In this document: positions 753 to 39,032 of the stretch, one piece after another
Layout: the number at the start of each line of letters is the position of its first letter
How positions within the stretch are numbered: the stretch's first letter is position 1
Source: Phormidesmis sp. RL_2_1
Lineage (GTDB): Bacteria; Cyanobacteriota; Cyanobacteriia; Phormidesmidales; Phormidesmidaceae
Reading direction: 5' to 3'
NCBI GenBank assembly: GCA_012033015.1
Contig: JAAUPS010000012.1
Coordinates: 1 to 44,011, forward strand
Length of the DNA: 44,011 nucleotides
The notes under the pieces: model-generated
Databases searched by the model: none
What the model saw: only the letters and a program-made list of their open reading frames with translations
What the model was told of the DNA's origin: nothing
Made by a program: the position numbers and the translations under genes

Positions 753-3362
753 CTATTTTTTGGCCTTGGCTTCCAAGCTTTCCAATCGACTTTTGAGTTC
801 CTTGTTGGTTTTTTTGACTTCATCGAGTTGCTCTCGCAAATCAGCGATCGCCTCATTCGCGCCAATTTTCTTTTGTACGCGTTGGGCCGCTTCATCAGCA
901 CGTCGTTTGACCCGGCCATCGGGACTGTGATCGGCTAGTCCCCGCAAAATCGAAATTGCACCGCCGACTTCCATTTGGGCCAAGGCTCCGACAGTGGCGA
1001 CTTGAGTGAGGAAAAAGTCTTCTCTTGATAGGGCTTCGAGCCGATCGAGAATGCGTTCGATCACCAGCTTTTCTTGGCCCTTAGAAATGGTGCCGAGGGC
1101 GCGAATAGCTGCTAGGCGGAGGGCTTGGGGCACGCCAAGTTCGGTGTAGGGCAGCAGTAAATCGAGGGCGGCTGCGGATGATTTGAATTGGCTCAGTCCA
1201 GCGATTGCCCCGCTGCGTACGACTTCATTCCATCCGGCTCGCTCTTTGAGGACGGTATCAAGTACCTTCAGCGTTTTCTTTTCCTTGTCCTTGCCATCTA
1301 TTTTCGCGGTGCCGATTTTGCCCAGCGCCCTGACCGCTGCTGCTTCCACGTAATAGCTCTGGTCACCGCTGTCCACCACCTCTTTGAGTGCTTTATAGCT
1401 CTGGGCTGTTTTGACACCGCCTAGGGCTTCTATCACTGCTCGACGAACGTTCGCGTGCTTGTCTTTAAGGCCCACCAATAATGCCGCTTCCGCTTGAGCA
1501 AGCTGCACAGCGCCGAGTTGTTCGGCTACTTCTGCGCGGACTGCCCAAAAAGGATCGCTTCGCAGGGCCTGTTCTAAGCTGGTAACGGCTTCTAAGCTGC
1601 CTTTTTTCGCCAGTGCTTCGGCTGCGAACAGTCGCGAAATCGGATCGGGGTCATGGGCGAGCTGGGCCTTGAGCTCAGCGACTGGATAGGTCAGCTCCAC
1701 TGTTTTGAGCAGATGATTGCCGACATCAAAACTGATAAAGTCGGGCTTATTTTCTAAGGGGAAATACAGTGCCTGCTCCCGCTCGTGAATGCGCACTTTA
1801 AAGGTTTTCACCGTCGGTGTGCCAGTTTTATCAGCCTGATTTAAGTAGCCAAATCCGATTGGTACTTTCAGATCAAATAATCCTTCTTGTACCTGGGATT
1901 TACCGTCTTCTACCTGAGTTTGCGTAATGGTCAATTTGGCCATATTGCTATCGCCATCCCAGCTATAGCCCACCTTGTAGTCAGGGTGTCCGCCGCGATA
2001 CACGTATTGATCAAATAAGAACCGGAGATTGCGGCCCGTGGCCTTGTCAATGGCTCGCAATAGATCAATGGTTTCAACGGTGCTGTGAGCATGATCGGTG
2101 AGCAGGGTGCTGAGCGATCGCGTAAACAGCTCATCGCCTAAGGCTGTGCGAATCATGTGATAGATACAAGAGCCCTTTTCATAAATATGCCGGTCGTATA
2201 GCTCAATGGCTTCGCGATAAACATGCGTGACCAAAGGCCGACGATAGCGGCTTTTATCTTCACTTAAATAGGCTCTGGCATGGTTGAGGTGATAGTACAG
2301 CGCTTCTTCTTTACCCAAGGTCTCTTCTATCCAAAGCACCTCCGAATACGTCGCTGCGCCTTCTTTGACCCAAGCCTGAGACCAGTGATTAATCACAATC
2401 AAATCGCCAAACCATTGGTGGGCAAGCTCATGGGCAACCAAGGTTTCGGCGCGTTGATTGTCCAAGGCGGCCCGTTTGTCGATCATGCACCGATCGGTGA
2501 GCAGGGTGGTGGTGGTGTTCTCCATGCCGCCAAAAATAAAGTCGCTGACACAGACTTGGTCATAGTTGGAAAAGGGATAATCGTAGCCAAACCATCGGCT
2601 CAGCATGTCCATCATCTGGGGTGTTTTGCCCATGGTGAGCTTGGCTTCTGCCTTGCGACCTTTTTCGAAGTAGTAGCTGACAGGTCGCCCTTTCCATTCA
2701 TCTTTGATTTCGTCAAAATCGCCAATCGCTAGCGTCATCAAATAGCTAGGATGCACTTTCTCTAGCTGCCAATGGTAGGTGGTGTCGTTGCCCTCTGTGG
2801 TGGTGGCGATCAGTTCGCCGTTGGAAATCGCTTTATATTTTTTCGGGACTCGCACCCGGATTTCTGAAGTGGCGAGCTGACCTGGATAGTCAAAGCAGGG
2901 AAACCAAAAGCGGGAGTCTTCATCTTCACCTTGAGTCCATACCTGGACGGGCTTGTCGGGATAATGCTCGTCGGGGCCAACAAAGTAAATCCCGCGCTGA
3001 GGATTGTTAACGGCATATTCTATCGTGAGGGTGAATGTTTTGCCGAACTGGGTGGGTGTTTTGAGGGTAACGCGGAGCTGTTCACCATCGTAGTCAAAGG
3101 TTTGTTTGGTATTAGCGACTTTGACTGATTTAATTTGTAAATCAACAGCATCTAAAGTCAGACTGCTAATGCCATCAACCACTGGGGCAATGCGGATTTT
3201 GCAGGTGCCGCTGTAGGCTTTATGAGGAATGTCAAAAGCCAGATCGAGGGCAATATGTTCTACTTGCCCAGGGCGATCAGGATTGTAGTGAGGGTAAGCG
3301 CCGGGGAGTTCAAAAGGTTTCCGACTCGCTTGATCGACTAGAAAGGTGTAGACGTTAGCCAT
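753..3362 (-). CDS. M1 family zinc aminopeptidase with HEAT-repeat C-terminal half
   Basis: An 869-residue gluzincin aminopeptidase, predicted to remove N-terminal amino acids from peptides in the cytoplasm; no signal peptide is visible. The exopeptidase motif GGMEN is near residue 279. The zinc site HELAH is near 311-315, with the third ligand Glu near 334 in WVKEG, the M1 spacing. Residues about 560-830 are alpha-helical repeats of HEAT type (for example DPISRLFAAEALAKKGS and ANVRRAVIEALGGV), replacing the usual ERAP-type C-terminal domain. The last 30 residues are a charged heptad-like segment, probably a coiled coil. Often annotated pepN in cyanobacteria, but it is not a full-length E. 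coli PepN orthologue. It starts at ATG 3362. Confidence 0.92.
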   Translation of the reverse strand: MANVYTFLVDQASRKPFELPGAYPHYNPDRPGQVEHIALDLAFDIPHKAYSGTCKIRIAPVVDGISSLTLDAVDLQIKSVKVANTKQTFDYDGEQLRVTLKTPTQFGKTFTLTIEYAVNNPQRGIYFVGPDEHYPDKPVQVWTQGEDEDSRFWFPCFDYPGQLATSEIRVRVPKKYKAISNGELIATTTEGNDTTYHWQLEKVHPSYLMTLAIGDFDEIKDEWKGRPVSYYFEKGRKAEAKLTMGKTPQMMDMLSRWFGYDYPFSNYDQVCVSDFIFGGMENTTTTLLTDRCMIDKRAALDNQRAETLVAHELAHQWFGDLIVINHWSQAWVKEGAATYSEVLWIEETLGKEEALYYHLNHARAYLSEDKSRYRRPLVTHVYREAIELYDRHIYEKGSCIYHMIRTALGDELFTRSLSTLLTDHAHSTVETIDLLRAIDKATGRNLRFLFDQYVYRGGHPDYKVGYSWDGDSNMAKLTITQTQVEDGKSQVQEGLFDLKVPIGFGYLNQADKTGTPTVKTFKVRIHEREQALYFPLENKPDFISFDVGNHLLKTVELTYPVAELKAQLAHDPDPISRLFAAEALAKKGSLEAVTSLEQALRSDPFWAVRAEVAEQLGAVQLAQAEAALLVGLKDKHANVRRAVIEALGGVKTAQSYKALKEVVDSGDQSYYVEAAAVRALGKIGTAKIDGKDKEKKTLKVLDTVLKERAGWNEVVRSGAIAGLSQFKSSAAALDLLLPYTELGVPQALRLAAIRALGTISKGQEKLVIERILDRLEALSREDFFLTQVATVGALAQMEVGGAISILRGLADHSPDGRVKRRADEAAQRVQKKIGANEAIADLREQLDEVKKTNKELKSRLESLEAKAKK

Positions 3363-3437
3363 AGGAGTTAAAAATAAAATGAGGGCAATGAACGGTAGCT
3401 CAAGGCTTTAAGTTTAGAGTATAGGCAAGCCGCTATA

Positions 3438-3562
3438 TAGCGGTACCCGGATGCATACTCTGCGAGAAGGCAGCGCCTACGGGTACCGCGACTCGCTTGG
3501 CCCGTTGTCACGTCATGGTTTCAGCCAACATGCTGTACCTCAGCCAAGTGAGAAACGCTATA
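3438..3562. repeat. Dispersed intergenic repeat, copy A
   Basis: About 125 bp that aligns end to end with 25585-25712, with many substitutions and small indels. Shared blocks include ACCC(G/A)GATGCATA, CGCTTGGCC(C/T)GTTGTC, and CAGCCA...TGCTGTACCTCAGCCAAG. A shorter relative lies at 17738-17796. It sits in the leader of ycf20 and is open in one frame, which artificially lengthens that ORF upstream. Confidence 0.75.
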
Positions 3563-3606
3563 AATATCAGCCACAACTTATCGTTTACTTATCCCAGGCG
3601 ACAGCG

Positions 3607-4089
3607 ATGCAAAGAACAAGGCTTAATACGCTGGTCAATCAAATGACGCTGCGATTTAGGCAGTGGGTGTTTAACCCGTGGCGGCGAATATCGGTTATTG
3701 TGATGAGCCTGTTGTTTGGTAATTTTTTTGCGGTTGCGATTTCGGCGACGGCAGGGCAAACTGCCAAGCTAGATGTGGCGATATCGGCTTTTTTGGTGAT
3801 TGGTGCAGAGCTGATTAGCTGGTTGTACTACCGCTTTACGCCTCGACGACGGCAGGCTCAACTGACCAATCAACAGGCGGTTATCCTACTGGAGCCCGAT
3901 GGACTGATGCCAGTAGGTACTGGCTTAGAGACGGGGCTAGGAACTGGGATGGGGCCAGAGATGAGGCCAGAGATGGGGCCAGAGATGGGGCCAGTCAGAA
4001 CGCGCTCAACGCTGACAGAATCCTTGAACGCTTTCAAATTGGGGATGATTTACGGTCTCTTTGTGGAAGCCTTCAAGCTGGGTAGCTGA
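3607..4089 (+). CDS. ycf20: Ycf20-like protein (DUF565)
   Basis: About 160 residues from ATG 3607. The same frame is open back to 3451, but that part lies in a dispersed repeat and does not resemble the family, so MQRTRLNTLV is taken as the start. The family landmarks are present: NPWRRISVIVMSLLFGNFF (membrane segment), SATAGQ, a second membrane segment AFLVIGAELISWLYYRF, and the C-terminal LGMIYGLFVEAFKLGS. Plant and algal Ycf20 relatives are linked to photoprotection; its role here is unproven. Between the second membrane segment and the C-terminus is an inserted linker, GMGPEMRPEMGPEMGP, encoded by an in-frame 15-bp tandem repeat (about 3946-3992). Confidence 0.85.
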   Translation: MQRTRLNTLVNQMTLRFRQWVFNPWRRISVIVMSLLFGNFFAVAISATAGQTAKLDVAISAFLVIGAELISWLYYRFTPRRRQAQLTNQQAVILLEPDGLMPVGTGLETGLGTGMGPEMRPEMGPEMGPVRTRSTLTESLNAFKLGMIYGLFVEAFKLGS

Positions 4090-6936: not shown

Positions 6937-7134
6937 CTACAAGTAAGGCATCATCAGTTCTACGTTGCGAGTATCGGTTTCATGGACAGTTGCCATTTTT
7001 GAAAGCTTACTCTTGCGATCTTGATCTTTACGCTCCAAGAGATGGTTCTTGTAAGCTTTGCGGCGCATGATTTTGCCACTTCCGCTGCGGCGAAACCGCT
7101 TAGCAGCAGCGCGACGTGTTTTGAGCTTAGGCAT
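6937..7134 (-). CDS. rpmI: 50S ribosomal protein L35
   Basis: 65 residues, normal L35 length, starting [20 protein letters not shown] and containing [17 protein letters not shown]. It is a small, very basic large-subunit protein. It is the first gene of the rpmI-rplT pair; the promoter should lie in the 285-bp gap to the small-protein cassette upstream. Confidence 0.98.
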
Positions 7135-7419
7135 AGTAATTGAATGACTGAAAGTGAATGACTGAAATTCAGCAGGTCTTTAAAAACTTGATTGTTTCGC
7201 AGTCTTTGATGATACTACGGCTCAGATAGGGTGACAAGGGGCACAGGTTCTGAGGGTTCGGGTTCTTGAAGAATCCAGGGAAAACGGATTGGCTCAAACC
7301 CTCAGCAAAGTACGAATTGAAGTCATAAAATTGAAGTCATAAAACTGGAGCCATGAAGGGCGCGGTGATTGACTGCTGCATCAGTTTTATCGCTCTATCT
7401 TGATCGCTCTATCGCTGCT

Positions 7420-7608
7420 TTATCGCCCTATCGTTTCCCTGATGCGTTCGAGCAGTTCCCAAAATTGTGAACCACGTTGCTGGCTTTTAAATACGCAGGT
7501 GGGTTTCCCTTCGGCATCTTTGTTGTCCTCCACATGCTGATTTTTTGCTTCATTGTCTGTTGCGGGAAATGTTTCGTTGTGAACCGTGCATACCCAGCGC
7601 CTAGCCAT
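7420..7608 (-). CDS. Small hypothetical protein, third gene of the holin-like cassette
   Basis: A 62-residue hydrophilic protein starting MARRWVCTVHNETFPATDN, with two cysteines, a charged middle and an amphipathic C-terminal helix (SQFWELLERIRETIG). I do not recognise the family. Its ATG overlaps the stop of the upstream membrane protein (TAATG on the minus strand), so the two are very probably translationally coupled, which argues that this small frame is real. Soluble and cytoplasmic by appearance; function unknown. Confidence 0.6.
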   Translation of the reverse strand: MARRWVCTVHNETFPATDNEAKNQHVEDNKDAEGKPTCVFKSQQRGSQFWELLERIRETIGR

Positions 7609-7919
7609 TACTTTAAGATCTCCTTACCGATGCGTCCATAAATTTTTTGCAGGTAGATAAAAGCCTCTTCGGAAAAACAACCGCTTAAAAAAGCTAAGGC
7701 AGTGATAGCCCAAGCCCGATAACTACCACTTTCGATTAAAACTTCTCGCACACCAGACATACAGAGGATGATGGTCGGGCCCATAAAAAAACCGAGAAAC
7801 ATCCAGTTAGACAATTTTTGGGTTGGCTGAGTTACCGAGTAAAAAACTTCTCTGAGAAATCCCCCACCGGCCCCACAGGCTGCGGCAAGAAGTCCGATGG
7901 CTTGCCAATAGTCCAACAC
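7608..7919 (-). CDS. Holin-like small membrane protein
   Basis: 103 residues starting at GTG 7919. There are three hydrophobic segments, about residues 4-26 (glycine-rich, LAAACGAGGGFLREVF), 38-58 (WMFLGFFMGPTIILCMSGV) and 69-87 (WAITALAFLSGCFSEEAF), and a basic C-terminal tail (LQKIYGRIGKEILK). The layout, with an N-terminal GGxxR turn, a third helix with FLSG, and a charged tail, resembles phage holins of the LydA/family-3 type; this is pattern similarity, not a proven match. It lies between two 62-residue genes on the same strand and is coupled to the downstream one. It could instead be an unrelated small membrane protein. Confidence 0.6.
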   Translation of the reverse strand: MLDYWQAIGLLAAACGAGGGFLREVFYSVTQPTQKLSNWMFLGFFMGPTIILCMSGVREVLIESGSYRAWAITALAFLSGCFSEEAFIYLQKIYGRIGKEILK

Positions 7920-7957
7920 GATTGCCCAAGGATACAGCTTTCTAATATTGGCTTCCT

Positions 7958-8146
7958 CTATGGCAATGTTGACATCTTTTCACTGTCGTAGGGAATGCCG
8001 TTAAATTCAATCGGCGGCATGGGTGGCCCACTCTCAGATGGAACCTCCCAGAGGTTGAGCCATTGCCACTGAGCATAAGCGCCACTAGCGATGTAGAGAA
8101 GCAGCGCAAAAATGATTAATTTGAAAAGCAGTGAGCGACGAGACAT
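7958..8146 (-). CDS. Small secreted or membrane-anchored protein, first gene of the cassette
   Basis: 62 residues with a basic start (MSRRSLLFK), one hydrophobic stretch (about 8-25, LIIFALLLYIASGAYA) and a short proline-rich exported tail (SESGPPMPPIEFNG). AYA followed by QW could be a signal-peptidase site; otherwise it is a single-pass anchor. I do not recognise the family. It lies 38 bp upstream of the holin-like gene on the same strand, so the three small genes probably form one transcript. Confidence 0.5.
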   Translation of the reverse strand: MSRRSLLFKLIIFALLLYIASGAYAQWQWLNLWEVPSESGPPMPPIEFNGIPYDSEKMSTLP

Positions 8147-8518
8147 TGTTAAAAACCCTATTGGGTTAAAAACTCTACTGGAAGCGACTCTAGGGTGAGT
8201 GCGCTACACGGTCATCAACATGACTATCTTGACTGTGTATTGCCTATGTATTGGCTATGTATTGCCTATGTATTGACTATATTTCGATATGAGGCGTATA
8301 GCGCTGTTGAGCACTCCAATAGCCTAGTAATTGTTTCAAATCGACATTTTGTGCAATATTCTGACTGGATATCGACTGGCGATGCTATTCGGGGATGATG
8401 CTATTCGGAGTAGGTTTAGGGGTTTCGCTTTGATTTTGCTTCTTGAAGCAATTTTTACCCTCGGCAAATCTCTGGCAAAATAAGGCTGGAAAGCTCACCT
8501 TCTTAACCCAGGATCTCG
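8147..8518. other. Divergent intergenic region
   Basis: It separates the minus-strand small-gene cassette from ycf23 on the plus strand and should hold both promoters. The main visible structure is an 11-bp direct repeat (CTATGTATTGC/G, about 8234-8280, four to five copies). No convincing gene; the 67-codon frame at 8195 has no family resemblance and no ribosome-binding site. Confidence 0.5.
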
Positions 8519-9280
8519 ATGACTATTTCTAACCAAACAGCAGCCTTTCAGTACGCCCTCTCGAACCGTTCTGCTTTAAAAATTATCAGCGGCCTAACGA
8601 ATTTAGATCAGCGCAATGTCTCTGATGTGGTTAAAGCTGCTCAGCAAGGCGGTGCGACCTTTGTTGATATTGCTGCCGATGCTGACTTGGTAAGGCTTGT
8701 GCGCGCTTTGATTGATTTGCCTATTTGCGTTTCGGCGGTGGAGCCAGAGCAGTTTGTAGGGGCTGTAGAGGCTGGCGCGGATTTGATCGAAATTGGTAAT
8801 TTTGATGCTTTTTATGCCCAAGGGAGACGATTTGAAGCCCCAGAAGTCTTGGCACTAACCCAGCGCACCCGCGCTTTGTTGCCCCATATTACCCTGTCGG
8901 TGACCGTTCCCCATATCCTGGCGCTAGATGCGCAAGTGCAGCTCGCTGAGGCGTTGGTTGAAGCGGGTGCAGATATCATTCAAACCGAGGGGGGGACTAG
9001 TAGTGCCCCTACCCATAGCGGTATTTTGGGCCTGATTGAGAAGGCTGCTCCGACGCTGGCTGCAGCTCATGCGATCGCCCATGCGGTCTCTGTGCCCGTT
9101 CTCTGTGCTTCTGGCATTTCTGATGTCACTGCGCCGATGGCCTTGGCCGCCGGGGCCGCCGGGGTTGGGGTTGGCTCAGCGGTTAACAAGCTCAATGACC
9201 CCTTGGCGATGGTGGCGGTGGTGCGTCGCTTGGTAGAAGCCATGGAGGGTGTCAGCAGCACTGCCCAAGTTGTTGTGTAA
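8519..9280 (+). CDS. ycf23: Ycf23-like protein (DUF561), TIM-barrel fold
   Basis: 253 residues from ATG 8519, preceded by AGGAT. The sequence has the repeating beta-alpha pattern of a TIM barrel: LKIISGLTNLD, GATFVDIAADADLVRL, LPICVSAVEPEQF, GADLIEIGNFDAFY, then GADIIQTEGGTSS and the C-terminal phosphate-site-like VPVLCASGIS and AAGAAGVGVGSAVN. This is the DUF561/Ycf23 family conserved in cyanobacteria and red-algal plastids; its biochemical function is not established. The ThiG/HisA-like phosphate-binding loops suggest a phosphorylated ligand (inference). Confidence 0.88.
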   Translation: MTISNQTAAFQYALSNRSALKIISGLTNLDQRNVSDVVKAAQQGGATFVDIAADADLVRLVRALIDLPICVSAVEPEQFVGAVEAGADLIEIGNFDAFYAQGRRFEAPEVLALTQRTRALLPHITLSVTVPHILALDAQVQLAEALVEAGADIIQTEGGTSSAPTHSGILGLIEKAAPTLAAAHAIAHAVSVPVLCASGISDVTAPMALAAGAAGVGVGSAVNKLNDPLAMVAVVRRLVEAMEGVSSTAQVVV

Positions 9281-12410: not shown

Positions 12411-12508
12411 TCAAATCTTGATGGTCAAATCTTGATGGTCAAATCTTGATGGTCAAATCTTGATGGTCAAATCTTGATGGTCAAATCTTGATGGTCAAAT
12501 CTTGATGG
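12411..12508. repeat. 14-bp tandem repeat, seven exact copies, between pstS and pstC
   Basis: Seven identical copies of TCAAATCTTGATGG fill 12411-12508. On the transcribed (minus) strand the unit reads CCATCAAGATTTGA. The array lies in the pstS-pstC intercistronic spacer, after the hairpin at 12520-12544. A second small duplication (CACCTTCAAACCGTA, about 12376-12405) follows it. Confidence 0.97.
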
Positions 12509-12519
12509 TCCAACTACTT

Positions 12520-16348: not shown

Positions 16349-16416
16349 CAGCTAAGTCCTGTTAGGGTACTTACTCTATATCATCTTAACTATATTTAAG
16401 AGTAGGTAAGTTGATT

Positions 16417-17549
16417 ATGTGGGACGTCGCCATTATCGGTGCAGGCTTAGCAGGTATTACTTGCGCTAGAGCATTAACAGCGGCAGGCTACACAGTTTGC
16501 CTGCTAGATAAGTCCAGAGGTCTGGGCGGGCGAATCGCTACCCGGCGGATTAATCCTCATTTGCGAGTGGATCACGGATTGCGCTACTGGCAGCCAGCCA
16601 GTGAGGCTCTCCAAGCGACAACGCGTGAACTGCTCGCAGCAGGGGTGCTGAAGCCTTGGTCAGTCAGGGCTTATGAGATGCTGCGGCGAGAAGTGATCAC
16701 CCCGGTAGTGTCGCCTGCTGATGCCATGTCTGAATCGACATCAGGGCCGATATATGTGGCCCCGGCCGGGATGAGTGCGATCGCCAAATACCTCACCCGT
16801 GACTTTACCCCAGATGAAAATTTGTTCACCAGCTATCGGGCGGTGGCGATTAGCCGTCAGCCGGAGCAGCAGCAGTGGCGAATCGAATTTGACGATGGCG
16901 AAGCCATTAAGGCCAAACAATGTGCGATCGCTATTCCGGCTCCCCAAGCAGCAGAACTCCTCGATACCTACGCTGAAGATCAGCGCACCCCATCCCACGA
17001 AGCAGCGCTAGCCCAGCTCAAGGCGATTACCTACTGGCCTTGCCTCAGTGTTTTGGCCGGGTATGACCGTAAATACCGCGATCAAATGGGTGAACTCAGC
17101 GCCAACGGCGGCCCCGAAGGCTGGATGGTCACCGATAAATCGGCGCATCTACCCATTGGGTTGCCCTCGACAGCAGTAAGCGAGAACCCGCCAAGCAGCA
17201 AGCCCCCGACGATGGCCCGGTCATCGTCATTCACAGCAAACCTGCCTTTGCTGAGCAGTACATCAATGCCGGTGACCTACAGCCTGCGGCCTCAGTGCTT
17301 CTGCGCGCCAGTGCGCGTAAGTTTTGCAGTTGGATGGCCCAGCCCGAATGGTTTCAGATTCACCGCTGGCCCTATGCCCATGTCAATTGCGCCTATCCTG
17401 AAGCGGCCTTAGAGATTAATGCAGATCTCGTCTGTGGCGGTGATTGGTGCGTGCCCGACCCTGAGGCAAAATCGACGCTGCAAAATATTGACTACGCTTA
17501 CGCCTCAGGCGTAGAGATGGCGAAGCGGCTGCAGGCTAGCGCCTCATAG
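16417..17549 (+). pseudogene. Renalase-like FAD/NAD(P)-dependent oxidoreductase, frameshifted
   Basis: From ATG 16417 (preceded by AGGTAAG) the frame encodes WDVAIIGAGLAGITCARAL, a Rossmann FAD-binding start, then DKSRGLGGRIATRRI typical of renalase-like flavoproteins, and continues to HLPIG near 17158. There the family sequence jumps to the -1 frame: WVALDSSKREP begins at 17157 and runs through KFCSWMAQPEWFQIHRWPYA, the flavin-site CGGDWCVP and the end at 17549. The break implies a net loss of one base (or four) near 17155-17160. As sequenced, translation ends at 17412 with a nonsense tail. It is either a recent pseudogene or a sequence error. Confidence 0.85.
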
Positions 17550-25750: not shown

Positions 25751-26851
25751 TTAAGATCGTTGAGGGGTTGCCCAAGTGTCATGGCCACGATCGCGTAAAA
25801 ATGCGGCTACTTGCTCGGCCTTGGGCATGGCTGCCTGGGCACCGGATTGGGTGACTGCTAGGGCCGCGACAGCATTGGCGTAGCGAATGGCAGGTTCGAG
25901 TACAGCCCGATGATTGAGCTTTTGGCTGAGCTTTTGGCTGAGCTGTGGGTTGAGCTTTGGGTTGAGTCGCGTTTGGGGTAAAGCTGTATCTGATGGTTTA
26001 CTTGCTGATGGCCCGAGCGCTGATGGCCCGAGCGCTGATTGACACAGCGCTGCTGCTAACCCGCCATTAAATGCATCACCAGCCGCGACGGTATCTATGG
26101 CCTGTACCGGAAAGGCTGGAACGGCAAAGCTATCGGTTGCGGTGGCACACACGATGCCGCGATCGCCTAACTTAACAATGACTACTTCGATACCTTGGCG
26201 TTGCAGCCTTTCTGCAGTAGCGATCGCACTTTTTTCATCCACTATTGCCATGCCGGTTAACCTTTCGGCCTCCGTCTGATTTGGCGTCAGGATCGAAATA
26301 TATTCACAAAAATCTGGCGCTAATGCCTGTTCGGGCAAACTGGGTACGGGGGCCGGATCGACGATGACGATGAGTCCGGCCTGATGGGCGATCGCAGCCG
26401 CCTTCTCCACGAGGGGCAAGGGAATTTCAAACTGGAGCAGCAGCACCTTGGCCTTGGCAAAGTAAGGCGTTAGCCGTGCCAAATCGTCTTCATCTACCGC
26501 GCCATTGGCCCCTGGAATGACGATAATTTGATTATTCATGGGAGACACTGCGATCAGCGCTGTGCCGGAAGGGTGTTGGGCGCTCCGATGCAGCGCGCTG
26601 ACATCAATCTGCTCGCTCATGAGCTGGGTGCGTAGGGCACTGCCAAAAGCATCTTGGCCGATGCGACCAGCGATCGCACAGCTTACGCCTAACCGCGCCG
26701 CCGCGACCGCCTGATTTGCCCCTTTCCCCCCCGGCACTGTTGCAAAGCTTCTGCCAGTTAAGGTTTCACCGGGCTGGGGTAAGCGATCGACTTGGGCCAC
26801 CAGATCCATATTGAGACTGCCCAACACTACGACATCTGCTGGTTTAACCAT
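25751..26851 (-). CDS. rbsK: Ribokinase (PfkB family) with a repeat-derived insertion
   Basis: 366 residues, about 50 more than usual. It phosphorylates ribose at O5 using ATP. Family motifs: VVVLGSLNMDLVAQVDRLPQPGETLTG, VPGGKGANQAVAAARLG (PfkB signature 1), ILTPNQTEAERL, and signature 2 DTVAAGDAFNGGLAAAL with the catalytic Asp. Between that helix and the last helices (RYANAVAALAVTQSGAQAAMP) sits a linker of about 45 residues (SALGPSALGPSAS...NPKLNPQLSQKLSQKLNH) encoded by 15-bp tandem repeats at about 25914-25965 and 26008-26040. The active site seems intact. No ribose transporter is adjacent. Confidence 0.9.
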   Translation of the reverse strand: MVKPADVVVLGSLNMDLVAQVDRLPQPGETLTGRSFATVPGGKGANQAVAAARLGVSCAIAGRIGQDAFGSALRTQLMSEQIDVSALHRSAQHPSGTALIAVSPMNNQIIVIPGANGAVDEDDLARLTPYFAKAKVLLLQFEIPLPLVEKAAAIAHQAGLIVIVDPAPVPSLPEQALAPDFCEYISILTPNQTEAERLTGMAIVDEKSAIATAERLQRQGIEVVIVKLGDRGIVCATATDSFAVPAFPVQAIDTVAAGDAFNGGLAAALCQSALGPSALGPSASKPSDTALPQTRLNPKLNPQLSQKLSQKLNHRAVLEPAIRYANAVAALAVTQSGAQAAMPKAEQVAAFLRDRGHDTWATPQRS

Positions 26852-27295: not shown

Positions 27296-27607
27296 AGAAA
27301 CGGATGGCTCCAAAGCGTCGTGACGTTGCCTTCATTATGACGCTTCGGTTGATATTTGATAGACATCGGTTGCATCTGTCGAGTTGCTGAGGACAGTCTG
27401 ATTGGCTTAAGCCGTTATCGGACAACAGGCAGCTCGATATGCAAAGTCAGAATACATCCTTACTTTGCTATAGCAATGGCTGGCAGCAGAGTTGATTCAG
27501 CAGAGTTGATTCAGCAGAGTTGATTCAGCAGAGTTGATCCATTTGGTTTCACCGCCGCTAAGAATCTATAGTGATGAGACAGAAAACATTACAGATGGTA
27601 TCTTCCT
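27296..27607. other. Divergent intergenic region upstream of dxr
   Basis: It separates the minus-strand zinc-ribbon gene from dxr. It holds a 14-bp tandem repeat (CAGCAGAGTTGATT, about 27484-27538, nearly four copies) and the dxr promoter and leader. Some small frames overlap it, but none looks coding. Confidence 0.5.
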
Positions 27608-28783
27608 GTGAAAGCCATAACTTTGCTCGGCTCGACCGGCTCTATCGGTACCCAAACGCTAGATATTGTCGAGCACCATCCCGATAAGTTCCGGTTGGTG
27701 GGGATTGCGGCTGGGCGTAATGTGACCCTGCTCGCTCAGCAGGTGATGCAGTTTAAGCCAGAGATTGTGGCGATTTGCGATCGCAGCAAGATCAATGCGT
27801 TAAAAGCTGCGATCGCCACCCTTGACCCCCAGCCAATCGTCTTAGCCGGAGAAGAAGGGGTTGTCGAAGTGGCTCGCTATGGCGATGCAGAAGCGGTGGT
27901 CACAGGGATTGTGGGCTGTGCGGGACTGTTGCCAACCTTAGCCGCAATTGAAGCGGGTAAAGATATTGCCCTAGCCAATAAAGAAACCTTGATTGCAGGT
28001 GGGCCGGTGGTTTTGCCCCTCGCCAAAAAACACGGCGTCAAGCTATTGCCCGCTGACTCTGAGCATTCTGCTATTTTTCAGTGCTTGCAAGGGGTGCCAG
28101 AAAATGGGCTCAGAAGAATTTTGCTCACCGCTTCGGGCGGTGCTTTTCGTGACTGGCCGGTGGCAGATTTACCGCAGGTGACAATGGCTGATGCGATTAA
28201 GCATCCTAACTGGTCAATGGGGCGCAAAATCACGGTAGATTCGGCCACGCTGATGAACAAAGGGCTAGAGGTGATTGAAGCATCATTATCTCTTTGGTGT
28301 GGACTACGACCAGATTGATATCGTGATTCATCCCCAGAGCATTATTCACTCGCTGATTGAACTGCAAGATACGTCCATGCTGGCGCAGTTAGGCTGGCCG
28401 GATATGCGGCTGCCGCTGCTCTACGCGCTCTCTTGGCCAGAGCGCATCTATACCGATTGGCAGCCGTTGGATTTGGTGAAATCGGGTGATCTGACGTTTC
28501 GTCAGCCGGATCATGACAAGTACCCCTGTATGGATTTGGCCTATGCGGCGGGCCGCGCTGGGGGCACGATGACGGCGGTGCTCAATGCGGCCAATGAGCA
28601 GGCCGTAGCGCTGTTTTTAGAAGAGAAAATTCATTATTTAGAGATCTCCCAGATGATTGAAAAGGTGTGCGATCGCACCGCAGCGATTTCAACGCTACCC
28701 CGAATCTAGAAGACATTTTGGCGGTCGATCGCTGGGCCCGAACGGCGATTACTGAGCAGCGCCTTGGCATAATCCGCAACTAA
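27608..28783 (+). pseudogene. dxr: 1-deoxy-D-xylulose 5-phosphate reductoisomerase, two compensating frameshifts
   Basis: Starts with GTG 27608 ([25 protein letters not shown] site) and encodes the MEP-pathway enzyme making MEP from DXP. It shows [25 protein letters not shown], the catalytic loop [41 protein letters not shown]. One extra base near 28283 then shifts the frame: [23 protein letters not shown] continues in the +1 frame. One base missing near 28677-28681 returns the original frame, giving [26 protein letters not shown] and the stop at 28783. As sequenced, translation ends at 28318. Cyanobacteria rely on this pathway, so sequence error is more likely than true loss unless a second copy exists. 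Confidence 0.93.
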
Positions 28784-29022: not shown

Positions 29023-29046
29023 CAGCGCACCTAACAGCGCACCTAA
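29011..29046. repeat. 12-bp tandem repeat, three copies, at convergent gene ends
   Basis: CAGCGCACCTAA at 29011-29022, 29023-29034 and 29035-29046. The first copy contains the TAA stop of the small membrane protein gene and the last overlaps the final bases of the NlpC/P60 gene on the other strand. Confidence 0.95.
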
Positions 29047-29759
29047 CAACGTCCGGTTGGCTGATAGCTTTCCACGACTCGGCCAAAGCAGCGCAGCAGT
29101 GCATGGTAGCTCGCACTCACCGGCTCACTGAGATCATCAATAGAATCTATGCCAATGCCGTTGCGGCCTGTGTCCTGACCCGAACTGTGGATATAGTTGC
29201 CCTTCCCGATATACAGCGCTACATGGGTGGTGCGCTCTGGGGTGCCAAAAAAAATCAAATCTCCCGGCTGCAGCTCTGCGCGGGTAATGCGTTGGGTAAA
29301 ATCTTCCTGCTGGTAGGAGTCGCGCGGCAACTGAATGCCTGCTGACATAAAGGCTGACTGCACTAAGCCGGAGCAGTCATAATTGGGCGCTGTTGTCCCC
29401 CCCCAAAGGTATGTATTGGGAACGGCCATCGCCGCTTGGGCAAACGCAATGACCTGGGGCAGTCGCGACTGAATCTCTGCGGCGCTCAGGGTAGGCGCTT
29501 GATAAGCGCTATCAGCCAAGGTCAAATCGTGAATGCGCTCCGCTGCAATCCAGCCTAAGTAATCGTCTTTGCAAATGCGTACCCGAATGGCGCTTTGATT
29601 TTTGGCAATTTCGAGGACGTGCAGCGAGTGGCCAATGTCAGCTTGGGTCACTAGCCCCTGACAAGCGGGTGTTTTGTATAGCTCAATGGAGCGATCGCAC
29701 ACATACGACTGATTCACCCCCCGATAGATATCATCTTGCAGTGCTTCTAACGTAACCAT
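29043..29759 (-). CDS. NlpC/P60 (C40) cysteine peptidase with SH3-like N-terminal domain
   Basis: 238 residues. Residues 13-85 form an SH3b-type domain (YVCDRSIELYKTPACQG...IRVRICKDDYLGWI). The C-terminal NlpC/P60 domain has catalytic Cys129 in NYDCSGLVQ, His179 in TTHVALYIG and a third polar residue near His191 in NYIHSSG; LQPGDLIFF is the usual strand before the His. The layout matches the Nostoc/Anabaena gamma-D-glutamyl-L-diamino acid endopeptidases that cleave peptidoglycan stem peptides, probably in recycling since no signal peptide is visible. No neighbouring recycling genes. Confidence 0.93.
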   Translation of the reverse strand: MVTLEALQDDIYRGVNQSYVCDRSIELYKTPACQGLVTQADIGHSLHVLEIAKNQSAIRVRICKDDYLGWIAAERIHDLTLADSAYQAPTLSAAEIQSRLPQVIAFAQAAMAVPNTYLWGGTTAPNYDCSGLVQSAFMSAGIQLPRDSYQQEDFTQRITRAELQPGDLIFFGTPERTTHVALYIGKGNYIHSSGQDTGRNGIGIDSIDDLSEPVSASYHALLRCFGRVVESYQPTGRC

Positions 29760-34300: not shown

Positions 34301-34520
34301 TTTTTTCTGAAGCCGTCTTGTCTGAAGCCGTCTTGTCTGCAACCGTCTTGGCAGAAGTTGTCTGTGTCGAAACCGTCTTTGAGTCCGTTTTAGTCTTTGA
34401 GGCCGCTTTAGTCTTTGAGACCGTTTTATCAGTAGCCTGCTTGGCAGAGTCTGCCGTCTTTTTGGTTTTCTGTTTGTCTGTAGTGTTGTCCTGAGTCGAT
34501 TTCTTTTTGGGTGAAGGCAT
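31314..34520 (-). CDS. uvrA: UvrABC excinuclease subunit A with long basic N-terminal tail
   Basis: 1068 residues. Damage-recognition ATPase of nucleotide excision repair. The conserved protein begins near residue 92 ([20 protein letters not shown]). It shows Walker [14 protein letters not shown], zinc site CPQCDRS, CPEHG...CPDCHGLG, first signature [16 protein letters not shown], second Walker [24 protein letters not shown], and second signature [16 protein letters not shown]. Without the first 90 residues it has the usual ~970-residue length. The extra tail is almost only Lys, Thr, Ala, Ser, Asp, with repeated KT(V/A)(S/A)DKT units, partly encoded by 15-bp repeats at 34306-34350. No other in-frame ATG exists in the tail. 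Confidence 0.97.
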
Positions 34521-36538: not shown

Positions 36539-37473
36539 ACGCCCTAGCGAGCACCAAGATGCCCACGACGGGTATACCCGCTGCCTGTAAGGTGACCCTC
36601 GCGCTCTGCGCTGTGGTTCCCGTCGTATAGATGTCATCGACTAGAACAACTGCCGGAGCCTGTCGCCCCCTGGCGAGCCTGACGCATTTTGTGACTGAGC
36701 GCTGGGCCGACCTCAAAGGCTTGACTCAGGTTTTGCTGGCGGGCCGCCAAATTCAACTGATGCTGAGGCAAGGTTTGCTGGATTCGATTGAGCCCGTGGG
36801 CCAATAGCGGTAAGCCGCTGATGCGGCAAAAAGCTTGGGCAATCAGTTCAGCTTGATTGTATCCTCGCTGCCGGTAACGACTGTCGTGCAGAGGAATGGG
36901 AACCGCGTACAGCGGTGCTTTGATCGGATGGGCCACGGTCAAAGTTGCGGTGCTCTTGAGCCACTGTTGAGCCAAGGCCATACCCAAAGGCTGAGCCACA
37001 TCCGGGCGATCGCGATACTTGAGTGCTAAAATCGCTCGCTTGAGGGTCCCTTCATACAGGCCCGATGCCCCGACTGCTAAAGGCTTAGCGTTTAAGGTCT
37101 GACATTCTAAAGTTTCACCGCGAGGTTCTGCCCATGAACGCTTGATAGGCGCAGGGTCTATCACTGCATGGCCGGTAGATAAATGGCCGGTAGATAAATG
37201 GCCGGTAGATAAATGGCCGGTAGATAAATGGTCTGCAGATAAATGGCCTGCAGATAAAGCTGTTGCTGCTGAGGGCTGCCAGTCGTCAGCTAATAAGCGA
37301 TCGGTACATGAGGGCAGTTGGCGCTGACAGTCTTGGCAAAATGTCTGGGATGTTGGGCGATCGCACACTGCACAGCCCTGTGATAAAAATACCCCCGTCA
37401 GATGCCCAATGCCGACTTTACCGATGTTTTGAAGGCGTCGAGCTGTACCTGTCGGCATCTTAAAGATATTCAT
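36507..37473 (-). pseudogene. comFC: ComF-family phosphoribosyltransferase-like protein, frameshifted
   Basis: The N-terminus has a four-Cys zinc knuckle (GCAVCDRP...FCQDC), then YEGTLKRAILALKYRDRPD, VPIPLHDSRYRQRGYNQAELIAQAF and LPQHQLNLAARQQNL, all ComFC-typical. At the run of five G (plus-strand C at 36666-36670) the family sequence passes to the next frame: RQAPAVVLVDDIYTTGTTAQSA, the PRPP-binding loop, ending at 36507. Four G would restore the frame. As sequenced, the product loses its PRPP loop. Between zinc knuckle and core lies LS(T/A)(G/D)H repeated six times, from a 15-bp tandem repeat. ComFC is needed for DNA uptake in naturally competent bacteria. Confidence 0.9.
37170..37259. repeat. 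15-bp tandem repeat inside comFC, six copies
   Basis: Four identical units of GGCCGGTAGATAAAT at 37170-37229 followed by two diverged units (37230-37244, 37245-37259). The unit is a multiple of three and adds six copies of the pentapeptide LS(T/A)(G/D)H to the comFC product. Confidence 0.95.
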
Positions 37474-38929: not shown

Positions 38930-39032
38930 CGTCACTTGCATGAACGTCACTTGCATGAACGTCACTTGCATGAACGTCACTTGCATAGACGTCACTTGCA
39001 TAGGCGTTACTTAATGGACGTCACTTAATGGG
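38930..39032. repeat. 15-bp tandem repeat upstream of dnaG
   Basis: CGTCACTTGCATGAA in three exact copies (38930-38974), two variants ending in AGA or AGG (38975-39004), and two 14-bp diverged units with CTTAATGG (39005-39032). Confidence 0.93.

Follow-up and report, generated by a model that had tools for sequence, protein, structure and literature searches.

The DNA analyzed here, referred to below as the window, comprises positions 1-44,011 of the forward strand of contig JAAUPS010000012.1 of Phormidesmis sp. RL_2_1 (GCA_012033015.1), a cyanobacterium of the Leptolyngbya group. It contains three small ORFs, which are arranged in tandem on the minus strand in the 5′ to 3′ order A, B, and C and are predicted to code for an exported, a membrane, and a soluble protein, respectively (Table 1). 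Re-reading of the sequence confirmed the number, the shared strand, and the lengths of the ORFs as first described, as well as the TAATG overlap at the B/C junction. The original prediction of a small chromosomal cassette of probable genes with no phage genes nearby was upheld by the ORFs of the window and the profile matches of the flanks. The cassette also proved to be undescribed in the libraries searched, as none of the three proteins had a family match. The neighbors had been called ribosomal, which is correct for one side, where profile matches identified rpmI and rplT (L35 and L20), but not for the other side, which carries the DUF561 gene and pst genes for phosphate transport; all of these are housekeeping genes. 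An Rfam search gave no match, and nothing specific to such a cassette was found in the literature.

Table 1. Features of the cassette and its surroundings (positions in the window).
Feature	Position	Strand	Description
rpmI (ribosomal protein L35)	6937..7134	-	PF01632; downstream neighbor
Insertion absent from congeners	7244..8462	.	Outer limits, between rpmI and the DUF561 gene; true ends approximate
Gene C	7420..7608	-	62 aa; predicted soluble; WVCxxH motif and second Cys; ATG overlaps B stop codon
Gene B	7608..7919	-	103 aa; GTG start; three predicted hydrophobic helices, basic C-terminus; orphan
Shine-Dalgarno sequence of C, AAGGAG	7620..7625	-	Within 3′ end of B; sequence GGTAAGGAGATCTTAAAGTAATG
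Gene A	7958..8146	-	62 aa; N-terminal hydrophobic segment; motif GAYxQW
DUF561 gene	8519..9280	+	PF04481; divergent upstream neighbor

Hydropathy analysis of A revealed a single hydrophobic segment (residues 5-23), which is preceded by RR and followed by a signal-peptidase-like site between AYA and Q, both read by eye. Judging from this sequence, A is likely to be exported or anchored in the membrane. In B, three hydrophobic segments were found at about residues 7-26, 36-62, and 70-90, followed by a basic tail, and the open frame extends upstream past the GTG start codon, back to a TGA at 7982-7980. C has no hydrophobic segment. In four protein-family libraries including PADLOC, nothing scored above the cut-off for A, B, or C; the match of A to phrog_23721 (0.022) was judged to be due to chance, as was a match of C to E2 (0.037).

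The six genomes of the same genus that were examined all carry rpmI and the DUF561 gene side by side in divergent orientation, 173-240 bp apart, whereas their spacer in the window has a length of 1384 bp. Both edges of the long spacer still align to the congener spacers (positions 7195-7243 on the rpmI side and 8463-8505 on the DUF561 side), and between them no convincing alignment to the congeners was obtained. Since the congener spacers are short and both edges align, the trio is part of an insertion not exceeding about 1.22 kb, which, according to this comparison, is carried by Phormidesmis sp. RL_2_1 and absent from the six congeners. Neither repeats at the ends of the insertion nor a transposase or integrase were seen, and no second copy of the insertion was found in the same genome. 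In a genome from another genus of the family (G008), the rpmI-DUF561 spacer harbors an adenylate-kinase-like gene (L027, G008:C5, positions 3134-3760), which is unrelated to the cassette and was rejected as a relative. As this spacer carries an unrelated gene, the rpmI-DUF561 site appears to tolerate insertions and to have received more than one.

Relatives of the three proteins were rare. For B, none was found in 97 near genomes, 390 genomes of the class, 65 of the order, and 358 from the phylum, or in the genome contig collection, IMG/VR, phages (50,697 records), and plasmids; the genome sets overlap, and single-sequence scans of this kind find close relatives only. The IMG/VR scans as a whole yielded no relatives, nor did tblastn searches of phages and plasmids with A, B, and C. 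Three weak genome matches for B (L024-L026) and three for C (L003, L004, L035) were set aside because of stop codons inside the matched stretch or frame. A Rhodoferax sequence (L051) was rejected as a relative of A because it is a DUF4124-like signal-peptide resemblance (named by eye), and loci in two other genomes (L038 in G002, L039 in G319) were rejected as stop-ridden non-genes.

A different situation was encountered in Leptolyngbya sp. SIO4C1 (JAAHIA010000387.1). As in the window, an A-like sequence is followed on the same strand by a C-like sequence; in contrast to the window, the two are directly adjacent without B between them, in different frames that run into each other, and have other chromosomal neighbors, namely an FAD-dependent/SLH-type gene and a short signal-peptide ORF (both named by eye). 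The A-like sequence (L032/L052, positions 1155-1292) has an aligned start and a conserved SGAYxQW motif and reached a local score of 73 compared to at most 52 in 500 shuffles of A; in a search of 65 genomes, this single weak match of A had an E value of 0.045 for that genome. The C-like sequence (WVCKIH...KNQ...C) keeps W5, V6, C7, H10, and C38 and had a score of 52. Random 311-bp stretches taken from other loci scored no higher than 42 (20,000 stretches), shuffled sequences no higher than 47 (10,000 shuffles), and five further A-like loci that were inspected reached 20-35. Since the A match by itself is weak, homology rests on the adjacent C match. The C-like frame has no ATG of its own, and the copy looks broken. 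Based on these alignments, we accepted the SIO4C1 sequence as an apparently degraded A-C pair without B at another chromosomal place. No further convincing copy was detected when 19 relatives of SIO4C1 were searched with the A-C pair, and tblastn with the SIO4C1 sequences gave no relatives in phages. Because the relic contains A and C but not B, it is the A-C part that has any conservation. The three-gene order is not conserved, an outcome named beforehand as speaking against the original prediction: the site is empty in all six congeners, B turned up in none of the other genomes searched, and the relic lacks it.

Whether the ORFs are genes at all was assessed by simulation and by coding statistics. 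A trio of successive same-strand ORFs of these sizes was present in 0.95% of simulated 1.2-kb sequences under a trinucleotide model of the insertion and in 1.6% under a model of the window. With the strand left free, three ORFs of these sizes were obtained in 14% of the simulations, and a single ORF of 103 aa was unremarkable (23%). The codon scores of A, B, and C are at the lower end of the range of native genes and close to the upper tail of the spurious ORFs; B and C scored best in their own frame, and for A one other frame scored about equally well. The Shine-Dalgarno sequence of C is a good one and is located 11 nt before the ATG, and no promoter stands out upstream of A. The low codon scores, the lack of relatives of B, and the tandem short repeats that the insertion contains in the genome's own style would all fit chance ORFs that arose in inserted or expanded non-coding DNA. 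Such an origin is nevertheless unlikely in view of the low frequency of the same-strand trio, the strong ribosome-binding signal of C, and the A-C relic in another genus. We consider it probable, with fairly high confidence, that A, B, and C are genes with atypical codon usage.

The original prediction had termed B holin-like. Holins are recognized as short proteins with one to four transmembrane helices, and B has this composition with its three hydrophobic segments in 103 aa. It resembles class I holins (lambda S105 type), which have about 100 aa, three hydrophobic helices, and a basic C-terminus, in all three respects, but differs from them by the absence of a sequence match, an endolysin, and a phage context. 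In Pfam, PHROG, and NCBIfam, no holin match was obtained up to E 5, an outcome that had been set beforehand as speaking against the designation, and B had no match in PADLOC or PDB either. The Phage_holin_3_3 / LydA family (PF16083) also consists of small multi-helix membrane proteins, as is predicted for B, but B did not match it, and no member of the family was detected in 194 cyanobacterial genomes, among them that of Phormidesmis sp. RL_2_1. AlphaFold predicted B alone to be all-helical with low confidence (pLDDT 56), which makes fold searches with this model uninformative: Foldseek gave no match at E ≤ 0.001, and two of the 19 non-significant matches bear holin names (Streptococcus phage C1 and a LydA-like holin, E 1.7 and 5.0). 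Neither an endolysin gene nor any other phage gene is present in the insertion or among the adjoining L35, L20, DUF561, and pst genes; the sole NlpC/P60 protein identified in the window (29043-29759) is 21 kb away. As there is no family match, no phage relative, and no endolysin nearby, filing B as a holin is unjustified, and a holin-like mode of action is, from its sequence, at best conceivable.

These data bear on three proposals for the function of the cassette. In the first, B would be a class-I-like holin, either a phage remnant or a protein domesticated to serve in lysis or export, and A or C would act as its partner or antiholin. Its size, segments, and basic C-terminus and the two holin-named Foldseek matches agree with this, but the failure of all holin profiles, the lack of relatives among phage records and IMG/VR, the surroundings free of lysis genes, and a model too poor for fold inference make it improbable. 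Even more remote is the assignment of B as half of a small transporter of the TRIC/UPF0126 type (PF03458, Gly_transporter). It is suggested by a Pfam match of residues 8-40 (E 0.081) and by a common short GGGxxR[DE] stretch in a helix, around which hhalign pairs 18 residues. The Pfam score of 13.2 bits is, however, below the gathering cut-off of 23.5 bits, the hhalign probability for these 18 columns is 12%, and the genuine family members of relatives have two tandem three-helix domains (about 200 aa) and open frames of 206-219 aa, whereas B lacks a second such domain. We judged this match to be due to chance. A membrane-acting toxin-antitoxin or bacteriocin-immunity unit, in which B or the exported A would be toxic and C or B would neutralize it, would account for the small co-oriented genes with overlapping B and C and for the sporadic distribution at different loci in two genera. 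It has a slightly better standing than the holin proposal but is still rather improbable, as PADLOC and the toxin and antitoxin families were unmatched and the relic, which keeps A and C without B, is a poor fit to a B-C toxin-antitoxin pair.

The explanation that we favor, with moderate confidence, is that the cassette represents an accessory small-protein operon of very narrow taxonomic range, which occupies an insertion no longer than about 1.2 kb; A and C would be its older core, and the proteins would act jointly at the membrane. A would be either exported or a protein anchored to the cytoplasmic membrane, B would be a three-helix membrane protein according to its deduced topology, and C would be soluble, with its translation coupled to that of B. 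All three are probably expressed and would act together at the cytoplasmic membrane. A and C are proposed as the older core because another genus has a broken A-C pair that lacks B, and B would then be an additional or faster-changing membrane component. The cassette was probably brought in by mobile or phage-like DNA; an origin in place is less likely, given the different locus of the relic. The operon interpretation is moderately favored by the empty site in the congeners, the trio frequency, the Shine-Dalgarno sequence of C, the B/C overlap, and the A-C relic. We counted against it the missing homologs of B, the low-edge codon scores, the inconspicuous promoter region, the weak A match, the broken state of the relic, and the lack of insertion-end repeats, a transposase, or an integrase.

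A far-reaching version of this operon, which we consider speculative, would be a mobile three-component system composed of an exported peptide, a three-helix membrane protein, and a Cys/His-containing cytosolic partner. In Leptolyngbya-type cyanobacteria, this system would shift from one chromosomal locus to another and control either the permeability of the membrane or an interaction based on contact or peptides. If A, B, and C indeed form a membrane-acting unit, this would add a new small system to those of cyanobacteria. On present evidence, the cassette is undescribed in the libraries searched, yet it is a neat but otherwise ordinary insertion restricted to one lineage. Orphan operons of small proteins are frequent, but to our knowledge few of them come with a clear empty-site comparison together with a relic in a second genus; as both are present here, it can be tested directly how old the A-C core is and how far it has spread.

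Several other features of the window were observed. Tandem Repeats Finder reported about 50 short tandem arrays (53 rows) with periods of mostly 10-18 nt, located in many intergenic stretches as well as inside ORFs (e.g., 12411-12510, 27484-27538, 37168-37258, and 38930-39026); one array consists of 7.1 copies of a 14-nt unit with 100% identity. In-frame arrays are present within conserved genes named by eye (36634-37473, 25751-26851, and 34306-34428): a ComF-like ORF has a 15-nt unit giving (STGHL)n, a ribokinase-like ORF has 12/15-nt units, and a UvrA-like ORF has 15/18-nt units at its N-terminus. The dxr gene (DXP reductoisomerase, named by eye; 27608-28709) is divided into two overlapping ORFs (27608-28318 and 28275-28709) as if by a frameshift, which reflects either a mistake in the assembly or a genuine lesion of an essential gene. 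In an FAD-dependent oxidoreductase ORF (16411-17412), the frame is seemingly lost near the C-terminus.
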